Shown: piece by piece, positions 7,067 through 23,128 of the stretch
Position numbering within the stretch: the first letter of the stretch is position 1
Layout: each line of letters starts with the position of its first letter
The notes under the pieces: generated by a model
Databases searched by the model: none
Told to the model about the DNA's origin: nothing
Seen by the model: only the letters and a program-made list of their open reading frames with translations
Source of the DNA: Candidatus Frackibacter sp. WG13
Lineage (GTDB): Bacteria; Bacillota; Halanaerobiia; Halobacteroidales; Acetohalobiaceae
Assembly: GCF_900114655.1 (NCBI RefSeq)
Contig: NZ_FOTT01000028.1
Location: 1-34,626, forward strand
Reading direction: 5' to 3'
DNA: 34,626 bases
Program-made: the position numbers and the translations under genes

Positions 7067-8422
7067 CTAGTGCAAGTTTCCTTCCCTATGCTCTACATCA
7101 TACGCAAAGAGTGCATAACCTATCTCTGCTACTGTCAAATCTACCTCCATTGATAATCGCCTAACGATAGTTATAATCTTTAAGTAATCATCTGCTGTGA
7201 ATGATTCTTTCTCTGTATCAAAATAGCCGATTCGCCAAAGGGTTGCCCAGACTCTAGTATCAATTACACAATGCTTCTCTGGGTCTAAGCTAGTTAGGAT
7301 GGCTGACGCTGTTGGAACTCCAACTCCAGATAGACTGGCTAGTAGCGTTAATTGGGCAAATTCATCTTCTAGTTGATAGACGATCTCTGTTATCTTTTCG
7401 ACACGATAAAGAGAGTTCTTCTTAACATGGTAAGAGCTACGAGTTGAATTTAGATGAGCTAGGCGATATAGCTCGTCTTTAGTCATATAACCTTTCTTAT
7501 GATACTCTGCTCCTAGTTCTTGTAATTTGGCCGGATACAGACCAGAAGTATTAGGATACAACTGAAGATACTTGCTGAGATCTATTGACCCGATATTATT
7601 CTTCTTTCTATACTTCTCTTTTAAGTCAGCAATTATCCAATCTGGTGCTTTAATAGTTCCTAAAAGAACTTCGTCTTTATTCTTGGGGCCATGACAATCA
7701 GACCCACCGGTAGTTAATAAGCCATTCTTCTTTGCTAATTTAAGATATCTACTAGTCGCAGATTGGTCATGCTTAGAATAATAAGTTTCTAAGCCTTCAA
7801 TCCCCGCTTCGATTATCTTCTTTACTAGTTGATCATCCTTTAATAGACTTGGATGAGCTAAGACAGATACTCCCCCAGCTCGATTAATGATCTCAATTGC
7901 CTCTTTTGGCGTCAATTGAGCTTTAGGTACATAAGCCGGGCCGTTATCACCGATATACTTATCAAAGGCAGCTGATATATCCTTAACCTGCTTAGCCTCT
8001 ACCAAAGCTCGAGCAATATGGGGTCTACCTACGGCACCAGAATCTGCAATCTCTTTTACTCTTTCCCAGGATACCTCTATCCCTAATTCATTTAACTTAT
8101 CTACCATCTTTTCGCCTCGTCTACGCCGAAATTCTTTCAATTCAGTTAATTTAGCTAATAAATCTTTATCGAGATAGTCAACATAGTAACCTAAGATATG
8201 AACTTCCTTATCTCCAACATAAGTGGTAAACTCAATCCCAGCAATCACTTCCAATCCTAGCTCCTTAGCCTGAGCCATAGCTGGCTCAACTCCTGCTAAT
8301 GTATCATGATCAGTAATTGCAATCGTCTTAAACCCTTTCTTCTCTGCTTCTACAACTAACTTCTGGGGAGTAAATGAACCATCAGAAGCAGTAGTATGTA
8401 AGTGTAGATCTACATTCTTCAT
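7067..8422 (-). CDS. PHP phosphoesterase fused to HhH-GPD glycosylase-like domain
   Basis: The protein has 451 residues. The N-terminal 280 or so form a PHP metal-dependent phosphoesterase domain: HLHTTASDG (H7, H9, D14), TDHD (D38, H39, D40), GIEF (E64), H75, LAHP near residue 190 and GGSDCHG near residue 240. Stand-alone relatives (TrpH/YciV type) act on nucleotides or RNA 5' ends and are about 280 residues long. The C-terminal 170 residues contain LSGVGVPTASAIL, a helix-hairpin-helix, followed by CVIDTRVW with an Asp at about residue 387. This matches the HhH-GPD base-excision glycosylase pattern LPGVGxxTAxxxL...VDTHV. The lyase Lys is replaced (GVGVPTA) and no Fe-S Cys cluster is visible. 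GGAGG lies 8 nt before the ATG. This domain combination is unusual; DNA repair is inferred. Confidence 0.8.
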   Translation of the reverse strand: MKNVDLHLHTTASDGSFTPQKLVVEAEKKGFKTIAITDHDTLAGVEPAMAQAKELGLEVIAGIEFTTYVGDKEVHILGYYVDYLDKDLLAKLTELKEFRRRRGEKMVDKLNELGIEVSWERVKEIADSGAVGRPHIARALVEAKQVKDISAAFDKYIGDNGPAYVPKAQLTPKEAIEIINRAGGVSVLAHPSLLKDDQLVKKIIEAGIEGLETYYSKHDQSATSRYLKLAKKNGLLTTGGSDCHGPKNKDEVLLGTIKAPDWIIADLKEKYRKKNNIGSIDLSKYLQLYPNTSGLYPAKLQELGAEYHKKGYMTKDELYRLAHLNSTRSSYHVKKNSLYRVEKITEIVYQLEDEFAQLTLLASLSGVGVPTASAILTSLDPEKHCVIDTRVWATLWRIGYFDTEKESFTADDYLKIITIVRRLSMEVDLTVAEIGYALFAYDVEHREGNLH

Positions 8423-8455
8423 CTTTTAACCTCCATCTCCTATTCTATTCTTTGC

Positions 8456-10429
8456 TTAGCACTTCTTATTAAATTCGGCTAATTTATTCTGATACTTAAT
8501 CATTATACCAACAAAAGTAGCATGTGACCAGGTTAAAGGAGCTACCGATAGTCCTTCATTCTTGTAAGGATGGATCTGTTCGGGTAATAGATTATCACTA
8601 TAAGTATGATCGACAACCCAATTAATTAATTCTTCAGCTCGCTTTAAGTCCTCTTTACCTTTGGCTATCTCTATATACCAATCAGCTAACCACAAGGTAG
8701 AGATAATCCATGGATTACCTGGCACTCTTTCTAAATAATCAGTACTTCTAAAATAATAGTCTCCTTCATACCTCGCTATGCCACCAACTGTTGTCTTTAC
8801 CCATAACTTTTCCTCAATCGCTTGCATCGTATTGACTACGCGTGGATCATCAGGAGGCAGAACACCAAAGTAATAAACTCCAAAGAGACTACTTTCAACA
8901 GCTTCATCATTTATGATCTGATCATCTACAGTACTAATCATTCTTATAAACCTACCTAAATCTTGATCATATAGATGACTTAACATGCCTTCTTTAATCT
9001 CCTGAGCTGCTTTTTGATATCTGTCAACTTTCTTTTTGTCACCGAACATATCAGCAAAAGTAGCTGCTTCCTGCAAAGCACCATAAACTGCTGCCGTAGT
9101 AAAGGTTAAGATACCTCTTCTTTCTTCCCAAAGATCATAACTAGGTCGTGGTAACTTCAGTTTTTGATCTCTATAATCAACAAGAAAATCAGCGGCTTTC
9201 TTAATTAAAGGTTCGTATAGCTGTTGGATAAATTCTAGATTCCCACTTTGGCGATAATAATTACCCAAAGCAAAGATTACCAAAGCTGTTTCATCCTCTT
9301 GAATCGGTAGTTGAATTTTGCCATCCCTAATCCAAGGATGCCAACTAGAACCAACCGAGCCATCAGGATTATATTTATGTAATAGATAACCATCAGGATT
9401 AATAACATCCTTGCAGAAATTAAAGAAACGTTCAGTAACCGTATGATAGCCAGCTTGATCAAGGTAATAAGCAACTAAAGCACCATCCCTAGGCCATAGG
9501 TAGCTATAATGGTCACGATTAAAGTCCAAGATATCAGAATCATTAGCCGCCGTAATAGCACCACGATTATCTATCTGGGTTCTAACGGTCAGTAAGCTCC
9601 GGTTAAATAATTTCTGCCATTCTTCAGGAATTTCTACACTGGGAATATAGCATGCACCATTCTTATTAACCCAAGAAGACCAATAATTATCAGTCTCTTT
9701 AATAAGCTTATCTATTCCGTGCTCCAAGACATAATTATTCAAATCCTTAACTTCTTGGTACTTAGTTCCTGCAGCTATCCAATAATCAACTTCACTACTC
9801 CCATTAGAAGATAGTTTCAATTTAAAACTGATAGTGCTATCCACAGAGCCCTGAGCAATCGGATTACTAGCTAAATCTCCATCTTCAGCGTCGCGCCAAG
9901 TTCCTTCGGCGCCCTTAAAGCCTTTAATTCCCGTAGAATAATTATAGATACCATCTGTTCCATTTTGACCATTAATTAAGAAGTAACGTTTGCCTTTATA
10001 ATGCATAACTCCTTGTAACATAGGCTCATACAGAGCCGTATTCCCTATATCTGAACCAGAAATCCGAAAGTCATGGGAGAAGAATAATTTACAACTGCGC
10101 TCTTTTTCACTTAGATTCTTTACTTTAACCTTCTTAAGGTAGATATCTTGATTATAATGAACCGCATCGATCATCTCTAATTCTAATTCTGCTTCTGAAT
10201 TAATTAGAGTAGTGTCAGTTACTAAGCTATTCTTTTTATATCCTAGTTCCTGCTCCCAACTCTCATCTACCCAATAAAAATTGTCATCAATCATAACTCC
10301 TATTCTCATTTTATGACCATTCAAATGATTCTCAGATCCCACATAGGGATAATAGAAATCTCTCATAATTGCATGTTGATCAAAGTTAATTAAGATATTT
10401 CCATTACCAATCACTAAATCTCTAGCCAT
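8456..10429 (-). CDS. Glycoside hydrolase family 15 (glucoamylase-type)
   Basis: The 657-residue enzyme has the two-domain plan of bacterial GH15: an N-terminal beta-sandwich (about residues 1-260) and an (alpha/alpha)6 barrel. Visible motifs are YLWPRDGALVAYYLDQAGY, HPWIRDGKIQLPIQEDETAL, LWEERRG with the likely general-acid Glu near residue 435, and LLPEQIHP with the likely general-base Glu near residue 616. Family members release glucose from the non-reducing ends of alpha-glucans or hydrolyse isomaltose or trehalose. There is no signal peptide, so it probably acts in the cytoplasm on glycogen or oligosaccharides. AAGGGGA precedes the ATG. It lies 33 nt upstream of the PHP gene and may be co-transcribed with it. 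The exact substrate cannot be read from sequence. Confidence 0.88.
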   Translation of the reverse strand: MARDLVIGNGNILINFDQHAIMRDFYYPYVGSENHLNGHKMRIGVMIDDNFYWVDESWEQELGYKKNSLVTDTTLINSEAELELEMIDAVHYNQDIYLKKVKVKNLSEKERSCKLFFSHDFRISGSDIGNTALYEPMLQGVMHYKGKRYFLINGQNGTDGIYNYSTGIKGFKGAEGTWRDAEDGDLASNPIAQGSVDSTISFKLKLSSNGSSEVDYWIAAGTKYQEVKDLNNYVLEHGIDKLIKETDNYWSSWVNKNGACYIPSVEIPEEWQKLFNRSLLTVRTQIDNRGAITAANDSDILDFNRDHYSYLWPRDGALVAYYLDQAGYHTVTERFFNFCKDVINPDGYLLHKYNPDGSVGSSWHPWIRDGKIQLPIQEDETALVIFALGNYYRQSGNLEFIQQLYEPLIKKAADFLVDYRDQKLKLPRPSYDLWEERRGILTFTTAAVYGALQEAATFADMFGDKKKVDRYQKAAQEIKEGMLSHLYDQDLGRFIRMISTVDDQIINDEAVESSLFGVYYFGVLPPDDPRVVNTMQAIEEKLWVKTTVGGIARYEGDYYFRSTDYLERVPGNPWIISTLWLADWYIEIAKGKEDLKRAEELINWVVDHTYSDNLLPEQIHPYKNEGLSVAPLTWSHATFVGIMIKYQNKLAEFNKKC

Positions 10430-10560
10430 AAGTAAATTTCCCCTTTTCCTTATTCATTATTTTAATCCTGTTGTCCTATGATTATGATTGCTACAATTGT
10501 CTTATACCCGTTGTTACTTTCTGCATATTATAGCAATAATAATTTAAACTGTCAATTATG

Positions 10561-22302: not shown

Positions 22303-22722
22303 TCATCTATCTTTATAAGAAGTGTCCAAAATCACCTGAGAAAATTCTAATATATCATCAATTTCATTCTCTACAATTGCCTGTACTATTTTTAAGTTTA
22401 CTTTCTGATAGTCATGCACTGCTATATTTCTAAAACCGACCATTGCCTTGAGATTCTCTGTCATTTTAGAGTCAATAATCTCGTTTTCGTATAACATTTC
22501 AAAAGCATCTCTACTATTTTGGGGAATACCAAGCTTTAATTCTGCTACTACATGCATTGCAGTATCGATAGCTGCTTCACATAATCTTTGTAAATTTAAT
22601 ATTATTGAGTCTTGCTTAGTATGATTTTTTAAATTTTCGGGATTATCTTGATACTCTTCGCTAATTCTTCTTATACATCTTTTTATGGTTTCATTTTTAT
22701 TTAGTAGAACATCATCAATCAC
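22303..22722 (-). CDS. hepT: HepT-type HEPN ribonuclease toxin
   Basis: This is the toxin of an MntA/HepT (type VII) toxin-antitoxin pair, an RNA-cleaving all-helical HEPN protein. The RX4HXY active site is visible as RNIAVHDY (R98, H103, Y105), and the Tyr is the residue that the partner AMPylates in studied systems. A GTG at 22722 is chosen, giving 139 residues, because GAGAGG lies 8 nt upstream; the earlier GTG at 22731 is part of the ribosome binding site. The gene overlaps the 3' end of mntA by 8 nt, which suggests translational coupling. The family is known; toxicity of this copy is inference. Confidence 0.87.
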   Translation of the reverse strand: MIDDVLLNKNETIKRCIRRISEEYQDNPENLKNHTKQDSIILNLQRLCEAAIDTAMHVVAELKLGIPQNSRDAFEMLYENEIIDSKMTENLKAMVGFRNIAVHDYQKVNLKIVQAIVENEIDDILEFSQVILDTSYKDR

Positions 22723-23128
22723 TAACGACACCTCTCTTTAAATTATCAATTATCACTTGTCTCTCTTCATTTAACTTGGCATACTTCTTCATGGTTTCCA
22801 GTTCAAAGTTCATCTTTTTTAGATTATCAGCGTTATAGATTAACTTTCCTTGTATAATCTGAGCTTTTAAGACGGTTGAAGCTTTATTAATATCTACTAA
22901 ATCAACTTCTCTGTTTAACTGATCAGCTAACTTTTGAGCTATTAAAAATACTTTGTATTCATCTAAATTCTTTTGAGATAAAAAAGCAATATCTATATCA
23001 CTATCTGGTCTTCCAACGCCTTTAGCAAAAGATCCAAATAAATATATTAATGTAGGTGATAATTCATCTATTAAAAAAGATTTGATTAGTTCTATTTTGT
23101 CACTACTTATATTCATTGTTTTTCTCAT
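22715..23128 (-). CDS. mntA: MntA-type nucleotidyltransferase antitoxin
   Basis: This minimal nucleotidyltransferase has 137 residues and the signature GSX10DXD: G32, S33, then D44 and D46 in GSFAKGVGRPDSDIDIA. A third Asp lies in EVDLVDI. In studied pairs MntA transfers AMP to a Tyr of HepT and so silences the toxin. GAGGTGG lies 4 nt before the ATG. The gene begins 20 nt downstream of the TATAAT of promoter copy 1 of the repeated cassette and overlaps hepT at its 3' end. Confidence 0.87.
   Translation of the reverse strand: MRKTMNISSDKIELIKSFLIDELSPTLIYLFGSFAKGVGRPDSDIDIAFLSQKNLDEYKVFLIAQKLADQLNREVDLVDINKASTVLKAQIIQGKLIYNADNLKKMNFELETMKKYAKLNEERQVIIDNLKRGVVSD

Follow-up and report, generated by a model that had tools for sequence, protein, structure and literature searches.

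RNase AM-type PHP enzymes have been characterised on RNA and on short 5′-phosphate oligomers, not on repair intermediates, and the Mag2 homologues are HhH-GPD proteins that act as inactive abasic-site binders. In the OGG2 8-oxoguanine DNA glycosylase/AP lyases, D194, W198, and a strictly conserved C-terminal Lys serve as 8-oxoguanine contacts or sensor (PMC3397491). The roles of the residues that form the metal site and the 5′-phosphate/base pocket of RNase AM are likewise described (PMC9410882). The gene analysed here, located in a 34,626-nt window (the whole stretch of DNA that was analysed) from Candidatus Frackibacter sp. WG13, joins domains related to these two enzymes in one polypeptide. 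Neither the fusion nor the halophile family to which its C-terminal domain belongs was found described in the open-access literature searched.

The fused ORF is one intact frame with a GGAGG upstream of its start (about 8430-8434). The same 452-453-codon frame (stop included) is found, at 65-71% identity, in five genomes, including one assembled as a single contig, and an assembly artefact or frameshift as the source of the fusion is rejected on these grounds. A clear Shine-Dalgarno sequence is lacking at every ATG, GTG, and TTG codon near the PHP-HhH junction, which makes a separate C-terminal product unlikely; an internal start yielding a separate HhH protein was rejected. The full-length model has a pTM of 0.72, a value at which the mutual placement of the PHP and HhH domains is uncertain, and its block-mean confidence is 71-72 at residues 241-250 and 271-280. 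Among the five fusions, the HhH half is better conserved than the PHP half (mean identity 76% versus 64%).

Features of the fused gene, with positions in the window
Feature	Residues (aa)	Positions	Strand	Basis or remarks
Fused gene, PHP phosphoesterase + OGG2-like HhH-GPD domain		7067..8422	(-)	451 aa, ATG start; conserved in G001-G004
PHP domain, RNase AM/CV1693 type, with insertion domain (aa ~95-180)	1-270	7613..8422	(-)	profile, PDB, and Foldseek matches
PHP motif I VDLHLHTTASDGS, ligands H7, H9, D14	4-16	8375..8413	(-)	aligned to RNase AM H13, H15, D20
R99 and R102, 5′-phosphate/base pocket	99-102	8117..8128	(-)	RNase AM alignment
PHP C-terminal metal motif GSDCHG, D242 and H244	240-245	7688..7705	(-)	RNase AM D255, H257
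Junction/linker	271-280	7583..7612	(-)	model confidence drop around linker
OGG2-like HhH-GPD domain, all-helical	281-451 (start ~277 by other estimate)	7070..7582	(-)	model and VIA
Helix-hairpin-helix LSGVGVPTASAIL, Pro370 at lyase-Lys position	364-376	7295..7333	(-)	MjaOGG2 129 alignment
GPD segment VIDTRVWATL, Asp388 at 7259-7261	386-395	7238..7267	(-)	MjaOGG2 D147 alignment
C-terminal helix end and tail YALFAYDVEHREGNLH; F439, D442, R446, His451	436-451	7070..7117	(-)	MjaOGG2 alignment

The C-terminal half is OGG2-like in sequence and in predicted fold. Single-sequence searches led to OGG-type families through weak matches: PRK01229 (N-glycosylase/DNA lyase, 3e-8) and PF22175 (Ogg-HhH, 1.6e-5), the latter at 25.0 to 26.4 bits, below its gathering cut-off of 27; the MjaOGG2 structures 3knt and 3fhf match by sequence at 1.1e-5. 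An AlphaFold model of the C-domain, built from 57 relatives, has a mean pLDDT of 93.2, with low confidence at domain residues 173-175 in the tail. Foldseek places OGG2 structures best (3knt, 2.1e-4), and VIA gives its highest Z values to four OGG2 crystal structures (3knt, 10.9; 3n0u, 10.8; 3fhf, 10.1; 3fhg, 9.7), followed by endonuclease III (Nth, 8.0), with OGG1 and others lower. Z values of this size for a helical fold are not proof alone; the sequence matches name the same OGG2 family. The HhH-GPD fold that the preliminary description had proposed thus withstood structure prediction, and of the MutY, OGG, and AlkA folds that it had named for comparison, OGG is the nearest, in its OGG2 form, and MutY and AlkA are not.

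The helix-hairpin-helix and the CVIDTRVW segment that follows it are present as first read. Specifically, Asp388 is the counterpart of MjaOGG2 Asp147 in the alignment and does not vary among the 57 relatives, in agreement with the catalytic-Asp pattern that had been predicted from the letters. Also invariant across bacteria and archaea are S329, H332, N336, G366, T371, S373, R390, W392, G435, F439, D442, R446, and H451, a pattern that, with Asp388 and the Pro or Ala at the Lys site, suits a maintained active site. The absence of the lyase Lys holds as well: the position of MjaOGG2 K129, which is Gln in the mutant represented by 3knt, is Pro in 55 of the 57 relatives and Ala in the other 2, and, with Pro370 in place of the Lys, a Schiff-base lyase reaction at the usual site is not expected. 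Archaeal members have a Lys two residues ahead of the Pro, at a hairpin Gly; bacterial members are without it, and it is therefore not a family-wide nucleophile. The preliminary description had also read the Fe-S cluster as absent, in accord with the presence of only two cysteines (C243 and C385) in the whole fused protein.

The residues with which OGG2 reads 8-oxoguanine are all changed, so that an 8-oxoguanine substrate is not to be assumed. In particular, MjaOGG2 D194 is replaced by Gly435 and W198 by Phe439, both invariant, with F439 placed by ungapped extension of the alignment; and the chain, three residues longer in its tail, ends in His in 57 of 57 relatives where OGG2 has Lys207. Membership in the canonical AP-lyase OGG2 family was rejected, the lyase Lys, the C-terminal Lys, D194, and W198 all being altered. 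No OGG2 above the curated cut-off was found among 17 relatives, and the fused protein may supply an OGG-like activity.

The N-terminal half belongs to the RNase AM/CV1693 type of PHP enzymes, nucleases or phosphatases that act at 5′ ends. It matches Pfam PHP (1.1e-14) and the NCBIfam models for nucleoside-bisphosphatase (1.5e-59) and RNase RNM (8.8e-55), both below the equivalog cut-offs (NF041577 and NF047791, 400 and 375 bits, against 201 and 186 reached). Its sequence relatives in the PDB are 3e0f, 7ug9 (RNase AM), 9etk, and 2yb1 (CV1693), at about 3e-33 or better, and the best Foldseek match of the full-length model is 9etk (Vibrio cholerae RNase AM, 4.9e-22), with 2yb1, 3e0f, and 7ug9 also matched. 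The full PHP metal site first read from the letters is borne out by alignment to RNase AM: all nine ligands of the three-metal site (H7, H9, D14, H39, E64, H75, H190, D242, and H244, corresponding to RNase AM H13, H15, D20, H45, E72, H83, H198, D255, and H257) are present and invariant in the five fusions, and those of motif I are invariant across 23 rows of fused and free PHP domains. The pocket residues R99, R102, R133, and F153 (RNase AM R107, R110, R141, and F161) are kept in 23 of 23 PHP rows. The phosphate-stabilising R201 of RNase AM is Leu or His in the fusions and is not Arg in 18 free relatives either; since R201 is not conserved, the PHP half is not classed as an RNase AM equivalog. 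At metal ligand His75, the free PHP sister copies show Asp in 7 of 7 rows (L035, L036, L037, L131, L132, L133, and L134), and the fusions retain His.

The nearest characterised PHP relatives, the RNase AM enzymes of V. cholerae and Escherichia coli, are 5′-3′ exoribonucleases, consistent with a role on RNA, in which the HhH half would recognise RNA that is damaged or structured, for 5′ to 3′ degradation by the RNase AM-type half. OGG2-type HhH-GPD domains, however, are known as duplex-DNA readers, and nothing in the gene context points to RNA; we consider a role on RNA very improbable.

We propose instead that the fused protein is a two-domain damage-processing enzyme, with an RNase AM-type PHP domain and an OGG2-like HhH-GPD domain that has the Asp and lacks the lyase Lys, and give this reading a probability of about 0.45. 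The HhH half is most likely a monofunctional glycosylase or a lesion reader coupled to the PHP nuclease, and the fusion suggests an undescribed coupling of damaged-base recognition with strand processing. The HhH half would bind DNA through its hairpin, and the damaged base would be flipped into a pocket whose lining includes Phe439 and which lies close to the invariant -Leu-His end of the chain. Removal of the base by a water-based monofunctional reaction using Asp388 would leave an abasic site; after nicking of this site, possibly by Endo IV, the tethered PHP half would trim the 5′ end. Endo IV is encoded in the same genome, so that the cell need not depend on the fused protein alone for AP-endonuclease function; lack of an AP endonuclease as the reason for the fusion was rejected for the same cause. 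The interpretation in the preliminary description, of a monofunctional glycosylase or damage-sensing domain tied to an end-processing phosphoesterase, is supported, with glycosylase activity and the base-pocket position of Asp388 as predictions from sequence.

A fuller version of the two-domain reading, in which one polypeptide removes the damaged base and then processes the strand end, and in which the glycosylase family is restricted to hypersaline habitats, where bacteria, haloarchaea, and Nanohaloarchaea have it in common, and has an undescribed base specificity, seems to us somewhat unlikely. Because the Mag2 homologues are inactive abasic-site binders, an HhH-GPD fold with an Asp does not prove catalysis. 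The HhH-GPD half might be a reader without catalysis of its own, recognising lesions, abasic sites, or distorted DNA and recruiting the PHP nuclease there to make the first cut, in the manner of EndoQ or Mag2. The presence of a PHP domain in a damage-specific enzyme has a precedent in EndoQ (PMC4357722, PMC8307549), the Mag2 structures 4b21-4b23 are among the VIA fold matches of the C-domain, and the alteration of the OGG2 base-reading residues fits a reader. An Asp388 invariant in all relatives over a very deep split would, however, be needless for a pure reader; the RNase AM-type 5′-phosphate pocket suits end trimming over internal cutting; and the four-Cys zinc-binding C-terminal region of EndoQ is not found in the fused protein. 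We regard a non-catalytic reader as unlikely.

The fused form is present in 5 of 5 genomes of the window's family, a group of halophilic anaerobes, and in no others of the 61 genomes compared (its own and 60 relatives). In the rest of the class, the C-domain is a free protein of ~178 aa, with a match in 30 of 59 genomes, decayed and split copies included. Broken copies are seen at G008:C5:386399-386494 and G046:C7:55662-55887 (decayed) and at G044:C3:14124-14647 (split frame), showing that the free HhH gene has been lost repeatedly in the class. Coupling to the PHP domain is not obligatory: most of the class and the archaea run the HhH protein without a fused PHP domain, and the protein is lost or decayed in several genomes.

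Synteny and trees suggest, as the simplest reading, one fusion event in which a nearby PHP gene was joined to the resident HhH gene. Genomes of the sister family have, on one strand, a PHP gene followed by UDP-sugar genes, galU, a TPR-SpoIID gene, and the HhH gene; the distance between the PHP and HhH genes is about 9-11 kb in three of them and about 20 kb in another. In the window's family, it is the fused gene that follows the TPR-SpoIID gene, at the place of the HhH gene, and a GH15 gene sometimes intervenes. The fused PHP domains group together (100/98), with the nearby free PHP as their sister at modest support (80/82), and the fused HhH domains make up a single clade (98/95).

This history also bears on mere tethering, in which the PHP half would carry out RNA 5′-end or pAp metabolism, the HhH half would do its own job, and the fusion would be a local rearrangement with no cooperative function. 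The free versions of both genes at 9-11 kb on one strand in three sister genomes, the single fusion event suggested by the trees, and the unrelated neighbours (polysaccharide genes, the TPR-SpoIID protein, and GH15), which offer no repair context, are as tethering would have it. Against it, the fusion is intact in all five genomes of the family that were compared, and in G005, G008, and G046 the free HhH gene is missing or has decayed; retention of the fusion while the free gene was lost elsewhere in the class suggests that the fused state is useful. We judge tethering quite unlikely.

Gene neighbourhood was rejected as a guide to function, no neighbour being conserved enough; in bacteria, the neighbours are polysaccharide genes and the TPR-SpoIID protein. 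In four Halanaerobium genomes (L058, L061, L064, and L065), the free HhH gene has, 2-5 kb downstream of it, genes for an SbcD-like metallophosphoesterase and an AAA protein (SbcC/YhaN-like). In three Nanohaloarchaea (L071, L094, and L127), an HD-domain phosphohydrolase gene lies directly upstream and runs into the free HhH start, with an overlap of 4 bases in L127 (about 8847-10522), suggesting co-translation. Adjacent small genes at 22303-23128 of the window resemble a HEPN/MNT (HepT/MntA) toxin-antitoxin pair, and both have homologues close to the free PHP gene of two sister genomes (L133 and L134). A role in phage defence was rejected, PADLOC giving one match at E<1e-3 (PDC-M49A, 4.7e-4, in the PHP stretch) and none in the HhH half.

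Beyond the class, the C-domain family follows halophilic lineages. A phylum-wide sample of 398 genomes yields the C-domain in 7 (E<=1e-5), each of them within Halanaerobiia. Its two best-conserved peptides identify 77 loci in 84,980 species genomes, all in halophilic lineages (Halanaerobiia, haloarchaea, Nanohaloarchaea, and two unclassified euryarchaeal MAGs); such patterns would miss divergent members, and "halophile-restricted" accordingly describes this clade rather than lysine-less OGG-like proteins as a whole. Among 295 sampled genomes of the haloarchaeal phylum, 14 have matches at E < 1e-80 and one at 4e-46, the remaining matches (1e-3 to 1e-18) being more distant OGG-like proteins; in the Nanohaloarchaeal phylum, the C-domain is present in 16 of 28 genomes. 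Plasmids yielded a partial haloarchaeal copy, 44% identical, plus weak matches, and two scans of viral contigs found no relatives. The haloarchaeal pleolipovirus HHPV3 has an ORF with no assigned function (L130:180-713(+)) that encodes a C-domain relative (P0001) and whose open frame runs upstream of the annotated start; it reads VPMASSIL...VIDYRVL, with the Lys site occupied by Pro and the Asp retained. The protein family phrog_24538 matches the window C-domain at 2.3e-22.

If the two-domain reading is correct, the fused protein would represent a new base excision repair architecture, glycosylase plus PHP 5′-end nuclease, and its C-domain a family of repair proteins whose occurrence follows high salinity in both bacteria and archaea. 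The free HhH protein occurs in culturable haloarchaea and in Halanaerobium, which makes its substrate and the effect of the fusion directly testable.

With the OGG2 enzymes MjaOGG, SsoOGG, and TmOGG, the C-domain shares the fold over ~160 residues, the HhH hairpin, the catalytic Asp, and a conserved C-terminal chain end; it differs in having Pro370 for Lys129, Gly for D194, Phe for W198, and His for Lys207, at 14-17% identity. With RNase AM (YciV/Rnm) and the CV1693 3′,5′-nucleoside bisphosphatase, the PHP half shares the PHP and insertion-domain fold, the metal ligands, and the Arg/Phe 5′-nucleotide pocket; the fused protein differs in having Leu or His for R201, in its scores of 186-201 bits, and in its C-terminal HhH-GPD domain. 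EndoQ is alike in that its PHP domain is tied to damaged-base recognition, but has a C-terminal zinc/cysteine module, has no HhH-GPD domain, and incises 5′ of the lesion. PF22175 (Ogg-HhH), PF21790 (OGG-like), and phrog_24538 belong to one domain superfamily with the window C-domain; the window protein lies just under the cut-offs of both Pfam families, and a wide score gap separates the halophile clade from other OGG-like proteins. RadC-fused proteins of an archaeal phylum (UPF0758_N + JAB; L153:3844-5184(-), L154:4591-5922(+), and L160) likewise combine a lysine-less HhH-GPD-like domain with a putative DNA-metabolism metalloenzyme, but their partner is RadC/JAB, their catalytic Asp is replaced by Asn (FNTHVY or FNTRVY), and their match is only about 1e-17; they are a second joining of the HhH-GPD superfamily to a putative DNA-metabolism enzyme.
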